A DNA stretch of 64,000 nucleotides, from NCBI RefSeq assembly GCF_029581275.1, contig NZ_CP120742.1, positions 1,958,501-2,022,500 of the forward strand, written 5' to 3'. A program made the position numbers and the translations under genes. The DNA is from Micromonospora sp. WMMD1155 (GTDB lineage: Bacteria; Actinomycetota; Actinomycetes; Mycobacteriales; Micromonosporaceae). Shown one piece after another: positions 171-20,483 of this stretch. How positions within the stretch are numbered: position 1 is the stretch's first letter; each line of letters begins with the position of its first letter. The notes beneath the pieces are model-generated. The model was not told the origin of the DNA, made no database searches, and saw only the letters and a list, made by a program, of their open reading frames with translations.

Positions 171-1886
171 GTGACGAGTGCGTCGACAGCGCAGAGCCCG
201 AGCGCCGAGCCGGCCAAGATGGTCGAGGTGACCGGCGATCCCAGCCCCAGCCAGGAGCCGACGGCACCGGGTGCCGACGGCGGCGGCGTGTCCGCCGTGG
301 TCCGGCGGAGGTTCGCCACCGTCGACACCAAACTGGACCGGTTCTCCTGGCTGGCCACGGCGGTGGTGGTGGCCATCGCGGCGATCCTGCGCTTCGTCGG
401 GCTGTCCAGCCCGAAGGGCAAGATCTTCGACGAGACGTACTACGCCAAGGACGCCTACGGGTTGATCAGCCGGGCCGTCGAGTGGAACTACAAGGACAAC
501 GTCCCGTCGTACGTGGTGCACCCGCCGCTGGGCAAGTGGTTGATCGGCCTCGGCGAGTGGGCCTTCGGCTACCAGGACGCCGAGTCGAAGGTCTCCGTCC
601 CGGGCCACCTGATCACCACCGCGCCGGAGTTCGGCTGGCGGTTCTCGGCGGCCGTGATCGGCACCCTGTCGGTGCTGCTGCTGGTGCGCATCGGTCGGCG
701 GATGTTCCACTCGACGGTGCTCGGCTGTGCGGCGGGCCTGCTGCTCGCCCTGGACGGCTTCCATATGGTGCTGTCCCGCGCGGCGCTGCTCGACATCTTC
801 CTGCTCTTCTTCGTGCTGGCGGCGTTCGGGGCGCTGGTGCTCGACCGGGACGCGCGCCGTCGCCGCTGGGCGCGGGCCCTTGACGACGGGCTCGACCCGA
901 GCCGGCCGGGCCGGGCCGGCCGACCGCCGACCGGTTGGCGCACCTGGCCGTGGTGGCGACTGGCCGCCGGGGTGCTGCTCGGCTGCGCCTGCGCGGTGAA
1001 GTGGAGCGCTCTGTACTTCGTCCCGGCCTTCGCGCTGCTGGTGCTCCTCTGGGAGGTCGGCGTCCGCCGTTCGGCGGGGGTCCGCCGGCCCTGGCGGGAC
1101 ACCGTGCTCGACGAGCTGCCCTGGGTGGTGCTCGCCGGTGTGCTCATGGTCGGCGCCTACCTGGCCACCTGGACGGGCTGGCTGGTCACCGACGACGGCT
1201 ACTACCGGCTGGCGTCGTCGACGCAGTACGCGACCGACAAGTTGAGCGACCGCCCGGTGATCGGCCCGCTGATCAACCTCTACGAGTACCACCGCGCGGC
1301 GTACGGGTTCCACGCCCAACTCGACGACGCGCACAAGTACCAGTCCTGGCCGTGGCAGTGGCTGCTGCTCGGTCGCCCGGTGGCGTTCCACTACGCCAGT
1401 GACGGCGCGTGCGGCGCGCCGACCTGTGCCTCTGAGATCCTGCTGCTCGGCACCCCGCTGCTCTGGTGGTCGTTCCTGCCCGCCCTGGTGGCGCTGGCCT
1501 GGCTCGGCCTGGCCCGTCGGGACTGGCGGGCCGGGGCGATCCTGCTGACCGTGGCGGCCGGGCTGCTGCCGTGGTTCTGGCTCGCCCTCGACGGCCGGAC
1601 GATGTTCTCCTTCTACGCCGCCCCGGCGGTGCCGTTCCTCGTGCTGGCCGTGGTGTACGTGTTGGGCGCGCTGATCGCTCCCGCCGGGGGTGACGTGGGT
1701 GAGGTGGCGCCTTTGGTGCCCGGCGACCCGAGTTACGAACGTCGACTGGTGGGCAGCATCGCCGCCGGGGCGTACGTGTTGCTGGTGGGGCTCTGCTTCG
1801 CGTACTTCTATCCGATCTTCGTCGGCAAGGTGATCCCGTACTCGGACTGGCTGTCCCGGATGTGGCTCGACGGTCGGTGGATATAA
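171..1886 (+). CDS. pmt: Dolichyl-phosphate-mannose--protein mannosyltransferase (Pmt)
   Basis: Polytopic GT39-family membrane enzyme of about 571 residues. It transfers mannose from polyprenyl-phosphate-mannose to Ser/Thr of exported proteins at the outer face of the membrane. After a Pro/Ala-rich cytoplasmic N-terminus, the first membrane span is followed by FDETYYAKDAYG, the family's conserved acidic loop (catalytic D-E pair), then PPLGKWLIGLGE. About ten further hydrophobic segments follow, and the C-terminus has the W-L-x-R-M-W-L-D-G-R-W family ending. I chose GTG 171 rather than the in-frame TTG at 150 because a -10 box sits 6 nt before it. Divergent from rsmI, as in mycobacteria. Confidence 0.93.
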   Translation: MTSASTAQSPSAEPAKMVEVTGDPSPSQEPTAPGADGGGVSAVVRRRFATVDTKLDRFSWLATAVVVAIAAILRFVGLSSPKGKIFDETYYAKDAYGLISRAVEWNYKDNVPSYVVHPPLGKWLIGLGEWAFGYQDAESKVSVPGHLITTAPEFGWRFSAAVIGTLSVLLLVRIGRRMFHSTVLGCAAGLLLALDGFHMVLSRAALLDIFLLFFVLAAFGALVLDRDARRRRWARALDDGLDPSRPGRAGRPPTGWRTWPWWRLAAGVLLGCACAVKWSALYFVPAFALLVLLWEVGVRRSAGVRRPWRDTVLDELPWVVLAGVLMVGAYLATWTGWLVTDDGYYRLASSTQYATDKLSDRPVIGPLINLYEYHRAAYGFHAQLDDAHKYQSWPWQWLLLGRPVAFHYASDGACGAPTCASEILLLGTPLLWWSFLPALVALAWLGLARRDWRAGAILLTVAAGLLPWFWLALDGRTMFSFYAAPAVPFLVLAVVYVLGALIAPAGGDVGEVAPLVPGDPSYERRLVGSIAAGAYVLLVGLCFAYFYPIFVGKVIPYSDWLSRMWLDGRWI

Positions 1887-12913: not shown

Positions 12914-13837
12914 GTGCCTACACCGCTTCCGGCCGTGAGCCCGACTCGCCGGGGACTGTTGGCGGCGGCGACGCTGGTGATGCTCGGGTCGGGGGCGTGC
13001 GCCGAGGCCAAGCCGACGTCCGGAGGGCAGCGCGGGCCTGATCCGGAGCTTCTCATCGACGAGCTGACCGCAAGCCTCTCCCGGGACAACCCCTACCGCG
13101 ACCCCGACACGGCGGAGCGAGCGGCGGCCCGGCGGGCAGCGCGATCCCTGGTCACCGGTCCGAGTGACGGCGCCGATGTGGACCAGATCTTCGATGATCT
13201 CGGCTTTCGGGCGCACCGTGGTACGGACCCGGCCACCGGCCGCCCGTTCGACCTCTACCTCGCCACCGGGTCCGACGATCGTGCCTGGGGCGCCGTGCTG
13301 GTGGATCGGAGCGCGACCCCGGGTACGGTCATCGAGGTGCCGCACCCCGGCTTCGACATCAACACGGAGAAGCTGGGTTTGGCGGTGCACCGGAAGGTGC
13401 CGGCCAGCGTGCTGCTTGTCGCCGGGGCCCATCGGCAGGCCGCCGGCGGCGATGCGGACGTCGCCCACAACGATCGGTCGCTGTTCCACACCCTGGCTGC
13501 CGAGTTCGCCAGGAGCGGCCTCGATCAGATCCAGCTGCACGGCTTCGCCGACCGGAACCTGCCCTCGTCCGACGCGGTGGTGTCGACCGGTTCGGCTCCG
13601 GTGACTCCGGTGGCCCGCCGGATCGCGGACGGTCTCTCCGGGTCCGGCCTGAGCACCTGCCGGGCGTGGGCGGAGAAGTGCGGCCAGCTTGAGGGCAAGA
13701 CCAACGAGCAGGGCCGCGCCGCGGCAGCGCTAAAAGCCGTCTTCATCCACCTCGAGCTGAGCTGGTCGGTCCGGCGGGACGCCGAGGCCCGGAGCCGCGT
13801 CGCGACAGTGCTCGCGGAGCAGCTCACCGTGGCCTGA
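12914..13837 (+). CDS. Exported protein, possibly a poly-gamma-glutamate-hydrolase-like zinc enzyme
   Basis: 307 residues. The N-terminus has twin Arg (SPTRRGLLAAATLVMLGSGACAEA): a Tat-type signal, with either lipidation at the Cys or cleavage after ACA. The mature part has VPHPGFDINTEKLGLAVH, VAGAHRQAAG, DVAHNDRSLFH and IQLHGFADR. The order His..Asp/Glu..Thr, then later His-Gly, loosely recalls the PH-G-x-E-x-T and S-x-HG elements of the PF05908 gamma-PGA hydrolase fold. The gene faces the pgs-type genes 24 bp from the last one. Seen: export signal and conserved His/Asp pattern. Inferred: hydrolase activity on the polymer or peptidoglycan. The family match is weak. Confidence 0.7.
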   Translation: MPTPLPAVSPTRRGLLAAATLVMLGSGACAEAKPTSGGQRGPDPELLIDELTASLSRDNPYRDPDTAERAAARRAARSLVTGPSDGADVDQIFDDLGFRAHRGTDPATGRPFDLYLATGSDDRAWGAVLVDRSATPGTVIEVPHPGFDINTEKLGLAVHRKVPASVLLVAGAHRQAAGGDADVAHNDRSLFHTLAAEFARSGLDQIQLHGFADRNLPSSDAVVSTGSAPVTPVARRIADGLSGSGLSTCRAWAEKCGQLEGKTNEQGRAAAALKAVFIHLELSWSVRRDAEARSRVATVLAEQLTVA

Positions 13838-13861
13838 GCCGGTGCCGGATCGTTATCGAGG

Positions 13862-14908
13862 TCAGAGCCGGCGAGCCGTCCGCCAGCGCAGGGCCCAGTA
13901 GCCGGTGCCGTCCAGGATGGACTCACCACCCAGGTCACCCATGGTCGGGCCGTTGGCGGTGGTACGGCTGGAGATGAACCGGTGGTGTCCCCGGTCGTCC
14001 ACGCCGAGGTACATGCCGGAGTGCTCGATGTTCGCGCCCTGCACCGGCCCGGCGTTGAAGAACAGCAGGTCGCCGGGGAGCAGCCGATCCAGCTCCCGGG
14101 CCCGCTTGCCGGTGTTCGGCATCAGCAGAGCCCCTGGTCCCACCGAGGCCATCGCCGTCGCCCGGCGGGGCAGGCCGGGGCCGGCGTTGTTGGTGCCGAG
14201 CAGCGGATAGCCCATCCGGTAGCCGTAGACCATGCGCAAGAAGCCGGAGCAGTCCAGGCTGCGGATGTGCGACGGGGTCGGCTTCTCCTTCTTGTCGGGG
14301 AACTCCCACGACAACCCGAGATAGTCGTAGAAGTCGGAGTTCTCCGCGCGACCGTCCGGATCGATGTCCGAGAGTGGCCCGAAGGCGGCGTCGCCGGAGT
14401 ACTGCCGACCCTTCGCATCCTTCTTCGGCTGGGCGACGTAGGTGTACTCCCGGGCCACCGCCAGCACGTCCGGTGAGCGGTCCGTGCGAGCCTTGGCGAA
14501 CCAGTCGGTGAACCACTTGTCCTTCTCGGCGCCCGCCCGCCACTCCCGCGGGGCCAGTCGCACCCAGAAATCGGTGGGCACCTTGGCCTTGGTGAACCGT
14601 GGTTCGGCGAAGGTCCGCTTCGGGCCGCTGATGTGCACCGTACGGGCACCGTCGGTCATGATCGCAACGGTGTTTCCCTTGGCGTCGAGCATCTGCGTCC
14701 GGTCCGGCGCGGTCAGCCGACGGTAGCTGTAGCCGGACGAACTCGGCGCGGCGGCCTGGGCGGCCTGGGCACCGAGACTCAGCTCGATCGGGTCCGTCGC
14801 GGAGTGCCGGACGGCGACGTAGGTGAAGGTGCTGCCACCGGTCAGCAACGCGAAGGCGGCGACGGTCATCAGCAAGGCCCGGCCGCGGGAGTAAGTGCGG
14901 TAGTTCAT
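13862..14908 (-). CDS. Secreted NlpC/P60-type cysteine peptidase in the PGA locus
   Basis: 348 residues from ATG 14908, with AAAAGGGG just upstream. An N-terminal signal anchor (RALLMTVAAFALLTGGSTFTYVAV) is followed by about 180 residues of unassigned domain, then a C-terminal NlpC/P60-like domain: SLDCSGFLRMVYGYRMG (catalytic Cys), DRLLPGDLLFFN, and IEHSGMYLGVDDRGHHRFISSR (His). These enzymes cut gamma-D-glutamyl bonds. B. subtilis PgdS, next to pgsBCAE, is an NlpC/P60 gamma-PGA hydrolase, so the position 27 bp behind pgsC suggests trimming or release of the polymer. Peptidoglycan hydrolysis is the alternative. Confidence 0.85.
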   Translation of the reverse strand: MNYRTYSRGRALLMTVAAFALLTGGSTFTYVAVRHSATDPIELSLGAQAAQAAAPSSSGYSYRRLTAPDRTQMLDAKGNTVAIMTDGARTVHISGPKRTFAEPRFTKAKVPTDFWVRLAPREWRAGAEKDKWFTDWFAKARTDRSPDVLAVAREYTYVAQPKKDAKGRQYSGDAAFGPLSDIDPDGRAENSDFYDYLGLSWEFPDKKEKPTPSHIRSLDCSGFLRMVYGYRMGYPLLGTNNAGPGLPRRATAMASVGPGALLMPNTGKRARELDRLLPGDLLFFNAGPVQGANIEHSGMYLGVDDRGHHRFISSRTTANGPTMGDLGGESILDGTGYWALRWRTARRL

Positions 14909-14935
14909 GCCTGCCCCTTTTCGGTGATGACGGCC

Positions 14936-15421
14936 TCAGGTGACCGGCACGAAGCCGGCCACGACGCCGCTGAACGCCACGCCGTAGGTGATGACGGTGA
15001 CCATGACGGTGGCCAGCACCGTTGCCTTCGGCGGCTGCCGCACGAGCTGGTAGGCGATCAGGCCGGGTGCCACGAAGCCCAGGGTCTGATGCGCGAAGAG
15101 CAGCGGCAGGTCGCGTTGGACGATCACGAACAGCGTCATCTGGAGGAGGACGCTGAGCAGGACGATCGCGGCGAAGAGGCGCTTGCCGTAGAGAATCACG
15201 ATGCGCTGCATCACCTTGGTGAGGGCGTACGTGACGACCGTCATGACCACGATCACCGCGGCTTGCAGCGGGTCCTCGATCAGCGCGAGCGCGATCCAGC
15301 CCGGCGTGATCATCCCTCCGGGCGACAGGTTGGTGGTCAGATAGCAGAGCAGCGCGAAGACCAGGCCGATGCCGAGGCAGGCGGTGGCGAGCTGGGCGCT
15401 GAGTTCTCCTCCGAATGTCAC
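14936..15421 (-). CDS. pgsC: Poly-gamma-glutamate biosynthesis protein PgsC/CapC-like
   Basis: 161 residues from GTG 15421, which overlaps the pgsB stop by 4 bases (GTGA). Small, very hydrophobic, with about five membrane helices: LATACLGIGLVFALLCYLTT, ALIEDPLQAAVIVVMTVVTYAL and LFAAIVLLSVLLQMTLFVIV among them. NLSPGGMITPGWIAL matches the conserved PgsC N-terminal loop (x-GGx-x-PGY-x). PgsC partners PgsB in the membrane ligase complex that polymerises glutamate. Length and membrane pattern fit the family (about 150 residues). Translational coupling to pgsB supports a stoichiometric complex. Confidence 0.9.
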   Translation of the reverse strand: MTFGGELSAQLATACLGIGLVFALLCYLTTNLSPGGMITPGWIALALIEDPLQAAVIVVMTVVTYALTKVMQRIVILYGKRLFAAIVLLSVLLQMTLFVIVQRDLPLLFAHQTLGFVAPGLIAYQLVRQPPKATVLATVMVTVITYGVAFSGVVAGFVPVT

Positions 15422-16695
15422 CGGCGGGTCCTTCCCAGGAACACGGTCTCGCCGTCCACGTCGAAACTGCGCGCGGTCGGCGGACGAAGCATCGATTCGG
15501 CCTGGGCGTGGTCCTGCGGTTCCCAACTCGGTAGGGCGGCCAGCTCGTGCAGCAGCACCTCGCCCTGCCCGTGGATGTTCCCGACGGCGACGATGGACCC
15601 GTCCCCTGCGGTCGCCGCCATCACCTCGCTGACCAGCCGCTCCGGCGGGAGCTTGCCACCCAGGTCGACCACCCGGCTCTGTAGGTCGGCGGGCACGTTG
15701 ACCCGGGCGCTGCGGGTCATCTCACCGATCAGCACGATGTGCTGCGGCTGGACCCGGCCGGCGAGCGTACCCATTTGTCCGTTTCGCTCCATCCGGTCCG
15801 GCCGACAGTTGATCACCATGGTCAGCGGCTGGCTGATCAGCCGTTGCTTCTCAAGTTGTTCGATGTTCATGTACGTCGACTCCGGGTCGTTGGCGGCGAA
15901 GATGTTGGCGAACCGGACCCGCTTGCTGCCGTGGAGGACTCGGGCCACCGAGAGCACGCCGGGATCGGGCGGCGCCGACCACATGCCGTTGAGCGCGCTG
16001 CGCCGGTCGACGCCGAGCTGTTCGGCGACGGCGAGCGCGATGGCCACGTTCTCCTTGAAGGTGATCCAGCCGAAGCCCGCCATCTCCCGATCGGTCACCG
16101 ACTCCGGGTCGACCGCGATCAGCTGGCAGTTCCGCTTGGCGGCCTCCTGCTGGAGGATCTCCAGCCGGTCCTTCTCCGCGGTGATGCAGATGCCGCCCTC
16201 GGGCATCGACCGGCTCAGCGAACGAGCCACATCGTCGAGAGTCGGCCCCATCTCCGCGAGGTGGTCCTCGCGGACGTTGCAGAGCACCCCGATGGTGGAC
16301 CGGATCAGCTTGCTCTGGTTGATCTCCTGCAACGCGGGCATGACCGCCATGCACTCGATGACCAGCGCATCCGGATGGTAGACGGCGGCTCGGCGGACGA
16401 TGCCGATCTGTTCGACCACGTTGGCGATCCCGAACTTGCGGTGAACCGGCTCCTCGCTGGCGTCCGGGAAGATGAATCGCGCGGCGGTGCCGGTGGTCTT
16501 CGCCACCACGACCTTGCTGCCACCGCGCAGCGCACCCGCGCAGAGTCGCGTGATCGAACTCTTGCCACGGATCCCGTTGACCAGCACCCGGTGCGGGATG
16601 GTGTTGAGGTTGCGGTTGTGGTTCCGCTGCTCGATCACGCCGGCCACCAGCAGCGCGAGGCAACAGAGGCTGTAGACGGTGTAGAGGTAGAACAT
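15418..16695 (-). CDS. pgsB: Poly-gamma-glutamate synthase, PgsB/CapB amide ligase
   Basis: 425 residues from ATG 16695. An N-terminal membrane helix (YSLCCLALLVAGVIEQR) is followed by a Mur-ligase-like ATPase: VNGIRGKSSITRLCAGALR (P-loop near residues 39-50), KTTGTAARFI, CNVREDHLAEMG (conserved in CapB) and FANIFAANDPEST. The enzyme activates a gamma-carboxylate with ATP and joins glutamates at the inner membrane face. A GAAAGG ribosome-binding site overlaps the stop codon of the upstream sensor gene, 2 bp away, and the stop overlaps pgsC. Family length (about 390-430) and motifs are intact. Confidence 0.94.
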   Translation of the reverse strand: MFYLYTVYSLCCLALLVAGVIEQRNHNRNLNTIPHRVLVNGIRGKSSITRLCAGALRGGSKVVVAKTTGTAARFIFPDASEEPVHRKFGIANVVEQIGIVRRAAVYHPDALVIECMAVMPALQEINQSKLIRSTIGVLCNVREDHLAEMGPTLDDVARSLSRSMPEGGICITAEKDRLEILQQEAAKRNCQLIAVDPESVTDREMAGFGWITFKENVAIALAVAEQLGVDRRSALNGMWSAPPDPGVLSVARVLHGSKRVRFANIFAANDPESTYMNIEQLEKQRLISQPLTMVINCRPDRMERNGQMGTLAGRVQPQHIVLIGEMTRSARVNVPADLQSRVVDLGGKLPPERLVSEVMAATAGDGSIVAVGNIHGQGEVLLHELAALPSWEPQDHAQAESMLRPPTARSFDVDGETVFLGRTRR

Positions 16696-16697
16696 GC

Positions 16698-18902
16698 TCA
16701 GCCTTTCATCGCCCGGCTGCGTGTCCCGGCCGCGTGCCGGACGCGCGCAAGGACGGTGGTCCGATCGGTGCCCGCGCCGCGTAGCCGCAGCGCTCCACCG
16801 AACCGGGCGGACCCGGTGTGCCGGACCTGACGACAGATCTCCAGGCACATCGCGATCGCGCCGATGTCGTCGTGCCGCTGCGGCGGAACGGGCAGTTCCA
16901 CGGTTCCATCGCTCATCTGCTCGGCGAAGGAGCTCAACCTCCGCAACGGGCGGACGAAGATGTAGAGCTGCCACACGTGGGTAAGGAGGGCGATGCCCAC
17001 CACCGCACCCGCCACCAGCAGGGTCCAACGCCGCTCCACCATCGCCGGCAGGCGCAACCCGGCGACGTCCTGCTCCAGCACGACGGCCCACTCGAGGTGG
17101 GCGACCGTCTCCGGCGCGGTCAGACCGGAGGCGGCGACCAGCGCGGGGGCCCCGTCCTCGGTGGTCGACTGACCAACCGTGCTGCCCGGGAGTACTTCGA
17201 CGGCGATTTTCCGGGCCACCTCGCCCTGGAGCGGCTGGAACGCCCGGAAGCCCTCCGAGTCCAAGATCGTCCGCAGCTCGGCGTCGACGACCCGGACCCG
17301 GCCGTCGACCCGACGGACCAGCCCGAGAAGGCGGTCAGGGTCGAACTCACCGACCACCGCGTAGCCGTCAGCACGCTGGTTGAAGGCATACACCAGTGGC
17401 AGGCGGTCGGCCGTGTCGTCGAGGTGGATGCCGATCTCGCCGGGCAGTGGCGCGACAGCCCGCAGCGGATCCCGACCGGCGCCGGCCACCACCTTGCCGT
17501 CCCGGTCGACCAGGTACAACGCCCGGAGCCGCTGCTCGTCGGCGAGTTCCCGATCGAGCGTCCGATCCGCCTGCGCGAGGTCCTTGACGGGCACCCCCTG
17601 CGACACCCGCGAGACGGTGGCCAGGCCGTCGTCCAGCAGGCGCCCCAGAGCGTTGCTGGCCTCCTCGGCCCGGTTCTCCTCGTCCCGAACCAACTGCACC
17701 GGAATCGTCGGGTCGGAAGCCTGCAACGCGAGCGCCGCGGCCGCCGCCGGCCAGAGCATCGCGACCACCACGGCCGCGGTCAGGCCCTGCAGGACGGTCG
17801 GTCGCCACCGCCGGTCCGGTGGGTACTGGTCGCCGGAGGTCAGCGCCAACGCCCGCGCGATCCGGTGCGCCTCGCGAATGCGCATCGGCGCGCGGTGCCG
17901 CGTCATCGCGCCGCAGGCGTCGGCCTTGGCCTGGTCCAGCAGCGCCCGGACGGGCCGGACCAGGGACTTGCGCATGAGCAGGAAGCTGAGCAGGGTCACG
18001 ACCAGCAGACTGAGCCCGAGCACCACCCCCTTGGTGCCCGAGGTCCCCACGCTCAGATCCGAGGCGAGCAGGGAGACGACCACGAGGCCGGTCTCACCCA
18101 CCGGCGCGGACGACACCACCAGCCTGCGGTCCGCCCACTCCTTGACGATCACCTCACGGCTCTGCGGCGAGTCGGTGCCGGCCAAGCCGGCGAAGACCGT
18201 CGGCAGGTGTACGGCGTCGACCGCGTTGGCCCCCTGCATCAGGCTGCTCTTGCCGTCGGCGGTGATCATGTGAATGCCGTGCCCGGCGTCGGGGTTGAGC
18301 CGCAGGTTCCGCATGGTGACCGGATGGGTCGCGAGCAGCGCGCGGGTGTCGTCCAGCGGGACGGAGTAGACCAGCGCGGGGCCGTCCGCCGTGGTGACGG
18401 CGACCGTCTTGTCGCTCTGCAGCACCGGTGGCAACAGGTCGATCGGGAGCGCCGCGCCCTTGGCGGCAAGAGGTCGCCGGGAGGCGGTCTCCACGATCGC
18501 CGCCCCGGCGAAGCCGGCGCCCGGGTCGACCAACCGGGTGAGTAGGTCGGCGTCACTCGTGGTGCCGCGCTCCTGCACCGTCCGGTCCAGCTCGGTCGCC
18601 CGACCTCGGGCCTCGACCTGCATGCCCGACGCCAGCTTCGACACTACGTCACGCTGGGAATCGACGACAGCCGGGAGCACCCCGCGCTGGGCGCTGACGG
18701 CGAACCCGAGGATCGCCACGGCGACCACGAACATCGTGGTCCAGAGATAGACCAGTGAGGGCGCGCTGGTGCCGGCCGGGAAGGCCGCCGCCGGCAACTG
18801 CTGGTCCAGCGCCCGTCGCCGCCACGCCAGCAACTGTTCCTGCTCATTCGCGGACCCAGCTGCCGACTGCCATGGCGCGTACTGAGCCGACCTGCCTGAC
18901 AC
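16698..18902 (-). CDS. Double-sensor HAMP-type membrane protein embedded in the PGA locus
   Basis: 734 residues, four transmembrane helices (about 51-72, 292-311, 372-393, 625-650). Two extracytoplasmic sensor-like regions (73-290 and 394-624) each start with a helical stretch (DVVSKLASGMQVEARGRATEL; ENRAEEASNALGRLLDDGLA). The second contains LYLVDRDGKVVAGAG, typical of Cache/PAS-like folds. After TM4, VRPLRRLSSFAEQMSDGTVELP is a HAMP domain, but no kinase, GGDEF or phosphatase domain follows. A shorter HAMP-like stretch follows TM2 (LVRPVRALLDQ). It sits between pgsA and pgsB in one operon, so it may gate polymer synthesis; this is inference. I know of no standard pgs component like it. Confidence 0.8.
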   Translation of the reverse strand: MSGRSAQYAPWQSAAGSANEQEQLLAWRRRALDQQLPAAAFPAGTSAPSLVYLWTTMFVVAVAILGFAVSAQRGVLPAVVDSQRDVVSKLASGMQVEARGRATELDRTVQERGTTSDADLLTRLVDPGAGFAGAAIVETASRRPLAAKGAALPIDLLPPVLQSDKTVAVTTADGPALVYSVPLDDTRALLATHPVTMRNLRLNPDAGHGIHMITADGKSSLMQGANAVDAVHLPTVFAGLAGTDSPQSREVIVKEWADRRLVVSSAPVGETGLVVVSLLASDLSVGTSGTKGVVLGLSLLVVTLLSFLLMRKSLVRPVRALLDQAKADACGAMTRHRAPMRIREAHRIARALALTSGDQYPPDRRWRPTVLQGLTAAVVVAMLWPAAAAALALQASDPTIPVQLVRDEENRAEEASNALGRLLDDGLATVSRVSQGVPVKDLAQADRTLDRELADEQRLRALYLVDRDGKVVAGAGRDPLRAVAPLPGEIGIHLDDTADRLPLVYAFNQRADGYAVVGEFDPDRLLGLVRRVDGRVRVVDAELRTILDSEGFRAFQPLQGEVARKIAVEVLPGSTVGQSTTEDGAPALVAASGLTAPETVAHLEWAVVLEQDVAGLRLPAMVERRWTLLVAGAVVGIALLTHVWQLYIFVRPLRRLSSFAEQMSDGTVELPVPPQRHDDIGAIAMCLEICRQVRHTGSARFGGALRLRGAGTDRTTVLARVRHAAGTRSRAMKG

Positions 18903-19057
18903 CGAAACGACTACCTTCCCCCGTGGAGCTGCGCTCTGGACCGCGATCCATCCAGCTCGTCAGCCAGGCACAGCCGCCGGCCGTCGCGAATGCTAGCAAG
19001 GCGCCCAACCACGCGAGCTGGGCCGATGTGGATCGGCTCTCGGCCGAATCGTGGCCG

Positions 19058-20269
19058 CTATCTACGCGGCACCCCGCGCACCACCAGGCCCGCCGCGCCG
19101 GCTGCCCTGGTCAACAAGTTGCCCTCGATGCGCTCGACCGCGGCCTCGTAGATCCGGCGTCGCCCCGGGGACAGGGCGGGATCCGCCATCGCCCGCTCCA
19201 GATCGACCAGACGGATGTTCGGATTGAGATCCACGAAGGTGGGGATCGCCTCGATGGCCACCACCTTCCACCTTTTCGTCTTACCTACCGGACCGAACGT
19301 CACCCGGGTCATCGCACCGTCACGGTTGGCGTTGACCGGCTCGGCGTGCCGGGCGATCTGGTTGCCCATCCCGTAGACGATCCAGGTGTCGCCGATCCGC
19401 TCCACCGGCTGAACGACGTGCGCGTGGTGCCCGAAGACAACGTCCACGTCGTCGATCGCGGCGATCTGGCGGGCCCAGGTCTGCTGGTCGACGTCCGGCT
19501 CGTGCTCGTACTCGGTGCCCCAGTGCAGGCTGACCACCACGATCTCCGCGCCCGCCTTCCGCGCCGCCGCCGCGTCCCGCCGGATCGCCTTCACGTCGAT
19601 CAGGTTCGCCACCCAGTCCTTGCCGGGCGGCGGGCGCAGGCCGTTGAAGCTCTTGGTGAAGCTGAGGTGCCCGATCTTCACGCCCTTGGCCTGATAGATC
19701 TTGGCGATGCGGGATTCCCGCTCGGTCCGGTAGCTGCCGGTGTGCCCCAGCCCCGCCTTGTCCAGCGCATCGAGGGTCCGCTTGACACCGTCGTACCCCT
19801 GGTCGATGGTGTGGTTCGAGGCGGTGGAGCAACCGTCGTACCCGACGCTCTTGATGCCCTTGAGCACCTCCTGCGGCACGCTGAACTTCGGGAAGCCGAT
19901 GTACGGGCCACCCGGCGGTGCCAGCGCGGTCTCCAGGTGACACAGGGCCAGATCCGCGCTGGAGACGGTTTCCCGCACCGGTGCCAGCATCGGGCCGAAG
20001 TCGAGCTCGCCGCCACCGTCGCGCCGAGCCTGGTCCCACAGCTCGGGGTGCGGCAGGATGTCCCCCGCGCCGAGCACGGAGACCGTACGGCCGGCGACCT
20101 CCACCGAGGCGCCCACCGGACGGGGCGGGGCAGGTGGTCCGGCCGTTTCGGTCGACCAGGGCCCGAGGACGTAGATCGCACCGACACCGACCGCTAGCGC
20201 GATCACGCAACTGAGGGTCGCCCGTAGCGTGCCGGAGAGCCCGCCGCTCGTCTGAGAATTACTCGCCAC
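19058..20269 (-). CDS. pgsA: Poly-gamma-glutamate biosynthesis protein PgsA/CapA
   Basis: 403 residues from GTG 20269. An N-terminal anchor (LSCVIALAVGVGAIYVLG) is followed by the CapA metallophosphatase-like domain: VLGAGDILPHPELWDQAR, ADLALCHLETALAPPGGPY (x-N/H-L-E), STASNHTIDQGYDGVKRTLDAL (ASNH), VVSLHWGTEYEHEPDVDQQ (HWG) and VVFGHHAHVVQPVE (GHHxH). All blocks are present with expected spacing. PgsA is thought to support export or anchoring of the PGA chain outside the membrane. It is first in the minus-strand run, 155 bp ahead of the sensor gene, and is preceded by its own -10 box. Confidence 0.93.
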   Translation of the reverse strand: MASNSQTSGGLSGTLRATLSCVIALAVGVGAIYVLGPWSTETAGPPAPPRPVGASVEVAGRTVSVLGAGDILPHPELWDQARRDGGGELDFGPMLAPVRETVSSADLALCHLETALAPPGGPYIGFPKFSVPQEVLKGIKSVGYDGCSTASNHTIDQGYDGVKRTLDALDKAGLGHTGSYRTERESRIAKIYQAKGVKIGHLSFTKSFNGLRPPPGKDWVANLIDVKAIRRDAAAARKAGAEIVVVSLHWGTEYEHEPDVDQQTWARQIAAIDDVDVVFGHHAHVVQPVERIGDTWIVYGMGNQIARHAEPVNANRDGAMTRVTFGPVGKTKRWKVVAIEAIPTFVDLNPNIRLVDLERAMADPALSPGRRRIYEAAVERIEGNLLTRAAGAAGLVVRGVPRR

Positions 20270-20406: not shown

Positions 20407-20483
20407 TGGTGGAGCTGAGGGGATTTGAACCCCTGACCCCCTCGATGCGAACGAGGTGCGCTACCAGTCTGCGCCACAGCCCC
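20407..20483 (-). tRNA. tRNA-Ala (anticodon CGC)
   Basis: A full cloverleaf on the minus strand: acceptor GGGGCTG/CAGCTCC, D-loop with CTGGTAGCGC, anticodon stem CCTCG/CGAGG around TTCGCAT (anticodon CGC, codon GCG), T-arm GGGGTTCAAATCCCC. The third acceptor pair is G3-U70, the main identity element for alanyl-tRNA synthetase, and the discriminator is A. The 3' CCA is encoded (20407-20409). Confidence 0.97.

Follow-up and report, generated by a model that had tools for sequence, protein, structure and literature searches.

The window, as the whole 64,000-nucleotide stretch of Micromonospora sp. WMMD1155 is called here, contains a locus that is best explained as a gamma-glutamyl polymer synthase, whose PgsB belongs to a lineage found mostly in the window's own actinobacterial class and has a membrane receptor as its constant partner. 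The receptor gene is followed immediately by pgsB and pgsC, and its 734-residue product carries the same sensory unit twice. We propose, with a probability of about 0.5, that this receptor is a built-in dimer that acts directly on the PgsB-PgsC synthase. Such direct action of a sensor on the PgsB-PgsC complex had been put forward in the first-pass annotation, a model's reading of the sequence, and the results described below are consistent with it.

Association of the receptor gene with pgsB

Loci were classed as type 1 when their PgsB scored above 480 bits against the PgsB of the window (lowest score, 497). There are 97 such loci with 97 different pgsB sequences, most of them fetched by PgsB; eight duplicate loci and one locus without pgsB (L207) were set aside before counting. 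The receptor, or part of it, is encoded directly upstream of pgsB and on the same strand at all 97, some of these loci having a split or single-copy receptor or one truncated by a contig end. Counted from the receptor's final sense codon, the PgsB match begins 0-33 bases further on in 96 of them and 409 in the remaining one. Streptomyces, Kitasatospora, Amycolatopsis, Lentzea, Kutzneria, Kibdelosporangium, Actinokineospora, Dactylosporangium, and Phytohabitans are among the genera represented. A receptor upstream of pgsB was found at none of nine lower-scoring loci (95-438 bits), which include a pgsB fragment (L073, genome G250) and a pgsB in two open reading frames (ORFs; L072, G414). The receptor-pgsB-pgsC order is not due to chance, because it recurs at every type-1 locus, and since these loci span many genera, the gene order is a core feature of the system rather than an oddity of one strain.

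Among 61 relatives, a full-length receptor is present in seven and a strong PgsB in the same seven, with the two genes adjacent. Three more of the relatives, without this PgsB, have weak matches to the C-terminus of the receptor (27-28% identity), and one weak PgsB match (E 8.5e-4) lies outside the seven. In the order set (397 genomes), PgsB was detected in 27 genomes (E 1e-20 or better), 20 of them with a type-1 PgsB, and the 20 genomes with a receptor (E 1e-10 or better) are exactly these 20; in the other seven, PgsB is distant or of the second type, or its gene is split (G414) or present as a fragment (G250). PgsB occurs in 14 and the receptor in 13 of the 394 genomes of the class set, the exception (G495) having a distant PgsB and two PgsC-like stretches in one ORF. 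The best two to four first-look candidates per genome were scored in the order and class sets, and up to nine in the phylum set. Eleven PgsB loci of genomes outside the class were examined in the phylum set. A receptor match is lacking at ten of them; at the remaining one, on a 3.2 kb contig of G930, pieces of the receptor precede pgsB. Receptor homologues situated mostly away from pgs genes, a pattern that by the first-pass annotation's own account would have refuted its inference, are not what is seen: they lie instead directly upstream of pgsB, with few exceptions (a gene pair in G243 and an ORF at L097, both described below, and the three weak C-terminal matches). When 47 PgsB representatives (33 with the receptor, 14 without) are placed on a tree, the receptor label needs one change, which is compatible with a single gain and does not strongly prove it.

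Architecture of the receptor and its variants

The receptor is an internal tandem duplication of a unit consisting of a transmembrane helix, a double-Cache (dCache) domain, a second transmembrane helix, and a HAMP domain. Its halves are homologous (hhalign probability 99.6, E 1.1e-24, 317 columns), with control probabilities of 0.7 for the reversed and 0.2 for the shuffled sequence. Pfam HAMP is matched by 41 of 41 aligned receptor homologues, the window's included, and dCache_1 by 11 of the 41 (E <= 0.01). HAMP matches from the PDB follow a transmembrane helix in both halves (profile positions 290-360 and 650-695), and the predicted structure of the receptor matches known double-Cache folds; some VIA-align rows that run across residues 73-622, and so combine both halves, were disregarded. 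The single-chain AlphaFold2 (AF2) model has a predicted local distance difference test score (pLDDT) of 90.3 and a predicted TM-score (pTM) of 0.82; this pTM, together with the duplication, suggests that HAMP1 and HAMP2 pair within one chain. The earlier description of a double-sensor protein without an output domain holds up, the single C-terminal HAMP domain that it gave has to be replaced by two, one in each dCache-HAMP unit, and the duplication of this unit had been missed.

No output domain is present among the Pfam matches of the 41 homologues (E <= 0.01), and nothing in these matches marks the receptor as a sensor kinase, cyclase or methyl-accepting chemotaxis protein. The chain stops approximately 38 residues past HAMP2, and residues 706-734 have a pLDDT below 50. 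In comparison with dCache-HAMP chemoreceptors and histidine kinases (PctA/PctC, McpX, Tlp3, KinD, DctB), the unit is here duplicated in one chain, and no kinase, cyclase, phosphatase or methyl-accepting output domain was detected. The amino-acid sensors of the dCache_1AA type share a ligand motif (R126, Y121, and others in PctA), according to excerpts of PMC10104139. Membership in the SiaA phosphatase family was considered and rejected, as the match reaches just 25.8 bits over residues 598-695 (cut-off 700), and a GTA_holin_3TM match of 18.0 bits, below its cut-off of 24.8, was taken as chance. Fusion proteins of receptor and PgsB were absent among 58 and 59 hits (lengths 374-796), of which the named ones are all from Micromonosporaceae.

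Several loci depart from the fused form. In G243 (L064), the receptor consists of two overlapping genes followed by pgsB, and profile matches assign to each gene a single unit resembling the transmembrane-dCache-transmembrane-HAMP arrangement; this two-gene form supports the view of the fused protein as a built-in dimer. G641, a genome of 81% estimated completeness, has only one unit, of the C-terminal type, before pgsB. In G265 (L065), the halves are separate ORFs with an integrase gene of the insertion-sequence type between them (L065:6611-7573). A split receptor was considered as the ancestral state and rejected, the split at L065 holding an integrase gene and thus being taken as a broken gene. 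No PF09587 protein was found in G265. G243 carries a second two-gene receptor pair without a recognizable pgsB (L207:8534-11133). This pair adjoins a kinase and a LuxR-type response regulator, and the ORF that follows resembles PgsB at its start but diverges further on; tblastn gave no significant PgsB remains that would indicate a decayed pgsB after the pair. A Lentzea locus (L097:3504-5000) has an additional receptor-like ORF of 499 amino acids (aa) approximately 3 kb upstream of pgsB, besides the regular receptor.

The polymer and the proposed mode of control

The polymer is probably gamma-linked glutamate. The PgsB of the window matches the TIGR04012 equivalog model with 384.2 bits over residues 9-383 (cut-off 222.7), and its P-loop, GIRGKSS, is invariant in the window protein and five relatives, consistent with a predicted ATP-dependent glutamate ligase. 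Further backing comes from P0007, a plus-strand gene in the same interval that the first-pass annotation passed over. Its product has a twin-arginine-like signal by eye and no Pfam match, and its 54-member family shows only scattered matches at chance level. The family strongly conserves the motifs H-P-x2-D, A-G-x-H-R, D-x-A-H, Q-x-H-G, and H-x-E, whose His/Asp/Glu clusters could be metal binders. The model of P0007 (pLDDT 91.2, pTM 0.85) has the phage enzyme PghP as its top Foldseek match (3a9l, E 1.8e-6, TM-score 0.40/0.57). With VIA-align it scores 14.4 against PghP, 14.5 against the PM1 enzyme, and 13.8 against YndL with bound polyglutamate; Atu2144 (2odf, 14.8) and an N-formylglutamate amidohydrolase (2q7s, 14.4) tie with these, and muramoyl amidases are lower, at 12.4 and below. 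PghP is a zinc enzyme that cleaves poly-gamma-glutamate (excerpts of PMC4497714).

P0007 homologues are found at the locus in six of the seven pgs genomes and in none of the 54 others among the 61 relatives, and a P0007-type gene is present at 68 of the 97 type-1 loci. This confinement to pgs loci and the predicted PghP-like fold, which is no proof of substrate, together offer independent support for a gamma-glutamyl polymer. The PghP/YndL poly-gamma-glutamate hydrolases are presumably those of PF05908. P0007 shares their predicted fold and differs from them in being chromosomal and adjacent to pgs genes, in its signal-like N-terminus, and in having no PF05908 match, none being found in 54 family members at E <= 10 with HMMER filters that drop most weak matches. 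The P0007 family would be new at the sequence level, with polyglutamate hydrolysis as its likely function. Poly-gamma-glutamate capsule systems occur in most phyla according to excerpts of PMC5542703, and some actinobacterial loci may be counted there. Searches of the open-licence PMC literature brought up, among the papers listed, no description of the receptor or of such an actinobacterial pgsB locus, nor any mention that these strains produce a glutamate polymer.

HAMP domains relay motion from membrane helices to a downstream effector. In the mechanism that we propose, the receptor would be a fused dimer: a single chain would hold two double-Cache domains outside the cytoplasm and two HAMP domains inside it, the HAMP halves would pair into one four-helix bundle, and the last HAMP helix would stop at the point from which an output domain usually extends. 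An extracellular ligand would alter this bundle, and the free end of the receptor would then act directly on the membrane-anchored PgsB and PgsC, so that synthesis would be gated post-translationally; the PghP-like and NlpC/P60 hydrolases might trim or release the polymer. Direct gating of PgsB-PgsC is favored because no effector was found and the synthase always follows the receptor; the contact between receptor and synthase, the gating, and the ligand are all putative. LapD signals inside-out with GGDEF/EAL domains, whereas the window receptor, in which no GGDEF/EAL domain was found, has the synthase as its presumed partner. In common with LapD-type proteins (see PMC3032553), it would be a HAMP receptor in the membrane that passes on its signal through contact with another protein.

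Several observations weigh against direct control. G250, in the order set, has a PgsB fragment of 81 residues (67% identity) and no receptor. Both G641, with its single copy, and G265, with its integrase-broken receptor, keep pgsB, so that the locus may be able to do without an intact fused receptor. The tail after HAMP2 is conserved in Micromonosporaceae and many Pseudonocardiaceae and not in Streptomyces. The one-change tree is modestly supported (61/99; 62% of bootstrap trees agree; midpoint root). The tight synteny, moreover, fits a pure assembly or export subunit as well.

Such a subunit, structural or for export, would stand in the place of PgsA/CapA and bind the nascent polymer with no signaling, an explanation that we consider unlikely. 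CapA was found at just 42 of the 97 type-1 loci, with its best hit always upstream, and was not found at 55 (flanks of approximately 8 kb; at 11 of the 55 less than 7 kb on one side, where the absence is weaker); a second profile, for the divergent CapA of G161, G335, and G362, left the counts unchanged. The receptor thus does not always lie between pgsA and pgsB, a constancy that had been considered earlier. At eight of the ten receptor-less loci from outside the class, capA is directly after pgsC, as in Bacillus, where PgsA reportedly enhances the ATPase activity of PgsBC and mediates transport (excerpts of PMC5751247). Modelers of the capsule regard CapA/CapE as accessory and regulatory (excerpts of PMC5542703). 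While these points would suit a replacement of CapA, receptor and CapA are both present at 42 loci. Of 24 genomes tested for PF09587 proteins, moreover, 23 have them, among them five of five without a PgsB hit, and therefore CapA could act in trans and the PgsA function may be supplied in this way. The retention of HAMP in every aligned homologue is also hard to explain for a passive subunit.

The receptor might instead take an indirect route, signaling to a histidine kinase or another partner encoded elsewhere and thereby controlling transcription; it would then be tied to pgsB through gene regulation only. This appears quite improbable. dCache-HAMP proteins do normally signal to kinases or cyclases, and kinase and LuxR-type regulator pairs lie beside the receptor genes at two G243 loci (L207 by Pfam, L064 by eye). 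The pgs genes of Bacillus are under the control of DegS-DegU and ComP-ComA (excerpts of PMC5751247). However, none of the ten ORFs tested around the window locus matched a kinase domain, the receptor is coupled to the synthase gene, and a kinase gene also lies near the receptor-less pgs locus L067 and is therefore not specific to receptor loci. That the product is another gamma-glutamyl conjugate (e.g., a wall-linked peptide polymer), with the receptor monitoring the wall, is the least probable of the explanations considered: PgsB lies well over the equivalog cut-off, and poly-gamma-glutamate hydrolases are the top Foldseek match of P0007 and among its tied top VIA-align matches.

Direct action of the receptor on the synthase could be carried one step further. 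We suggest tentatively, and with some doubt, that in an actinobacterial lineage a single-chain, pseudo-dimeric chemoreceptor has taken the place of the PgsA-like partner and works as an allosteric subunit, with the synthase as its output domain. If so, polymer synthesis would be under direct extracellular control with no kinase, second messenger or transcription. Direct control by the receptor, in this form or in the main one, would give poly-gamma-glutamate synthases a further, post-translational layer of regulation and would provide a role for HAMP proteins that lack an output domain. It would also point to a gamma-glutamyl surface polymer in Streptomyces, Amycolatopsis, Micromonospora, and relatives.

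Layout of the locus and other pgs loci

The minus strand carries, in order, capA, the receptor gene, pgsB, pgsC, and an NlpC/P60 gene, as established by ORFs and domain matches (Table 1). The coordinates bear out the 4 bp overlap of pgsB and pgsC and the 2 bp between the receptor stop and the pgsB start that had been read from the sequence. capA is 155 bp away from the receptor gene, which leaves the receptor gene, pgsB, and pgsC as the closely coupled unit; nlpC starts 27 bp beyond pgsC. The P0007 gene is convergent with nlpC, and 24 bp separate the two stops.

Table 1. Features of the pgs locus in the window, with the parts of the receptor in residues of the protein (TM, transmembrane helix)
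Feature	Position	Strand	Basis
tRNA-Ala (CGC), just upstream of capA	20407-20483	-	
CapA/PgsA homologue, 403 aa, one N-terminal TM	19058..20269	-	Pfam PF09587 PGA_cap; TM by hydropathy
Tandem double-Cache/HAMP receptor, 734 aa	16698..18902	-	Pfam HAMP, alignment of halves, AF2 model
Receptor half 1	TM1 ~51-76, dCache 1 ~77-285, TM2 ~290-310, HAMP1 ~311-355		
Receptor half 2	TM3 ~370-392, dCache 2 ~402-611, TM4 ~620-646, HAMP2 ~649-696, then short tail		
PgsB/CapB homologue, 425 aa, Mur-ligase-like, one N-terminal TM	15418..16695	-	TIGR04012; TM by hydropathy
PgsC/CapC homologue, 161 aa, multi-TM	14936..15421	-	Pfam PF14102
NlpC/P60 hydrolase, 348 aa	13862..14908	-	Pfam PF00877
P0007, 307 aa, predicted PghP-like gamma-glutamyl hydrolase	12914..13837	+	Predicted fold

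The homologues of CapA/PgsA, CapB/PgsB, and CapC/PgsC named in the first-pass annotation are all present. In addition to the TIGR04012 match of PgsB, CapA reaches 220.7 bits with PGA_cap and PgsC 124.2 bits with CapC (PF14102), each against a Pfam cut-off of 27; PgsC scores 81.4 bits with TIGR04011, under the cut-off of 96.45. By its PgsB, the nearest named relatives of the window are Micromonospora inaquosa and M. chokoriensis. The NlpC/P60 hydrolase expected after pgsC is likewise there (PF00877, 33.1 bits, over the Pfam cut-off), with an N-terminus that is signal-like by eye and under the transmembrane threshold of the hydropathy scan; it may be called PgdS-like in position and domain only. 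At 94 of the 97 type-1 loci, pgsC is followed by an NlpC/P60 gene in the same orientation, and at L131 (L131:5829-8304) by two tandem NlpC/P60-type ORFs.

The locus has a PgsB ligase, its membrane partner PgsC, and a CapA/PgsA homologue in common with pgsBCAE/capBCADE of Bacillus, and the NlpC/P60 hydrolase beside the operon recalls pgdS beside the pgs operon of B. subtilis. In contrast to the Bacillus loci, a duplicated dCache-HAMP receptor is here the constant neighbor of pgsB, a PghP-like gene is nearby at the 68 loci mentioned above, and capA is upstream or not found rather than directly after pgsC. The classical pgsBCA order, in which capA comes immediately after pgsC in the same orientation, is accordingly absent from the window, where capA precedes the receptor gene.

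Other kinds of pgs loci occur as well. A different Micromonospora type (L066, L067, L068) has a PgsB approximately 57% identical, no receptor, and capA downstream, and G379 carries both types. Distant actinobacterial PgsB loci (L205:7580-8740, L225:548-3127, L226:5884-7644) contain two PgsC-like stretches per ORF, which suggests that PgsC is duplicated in them.

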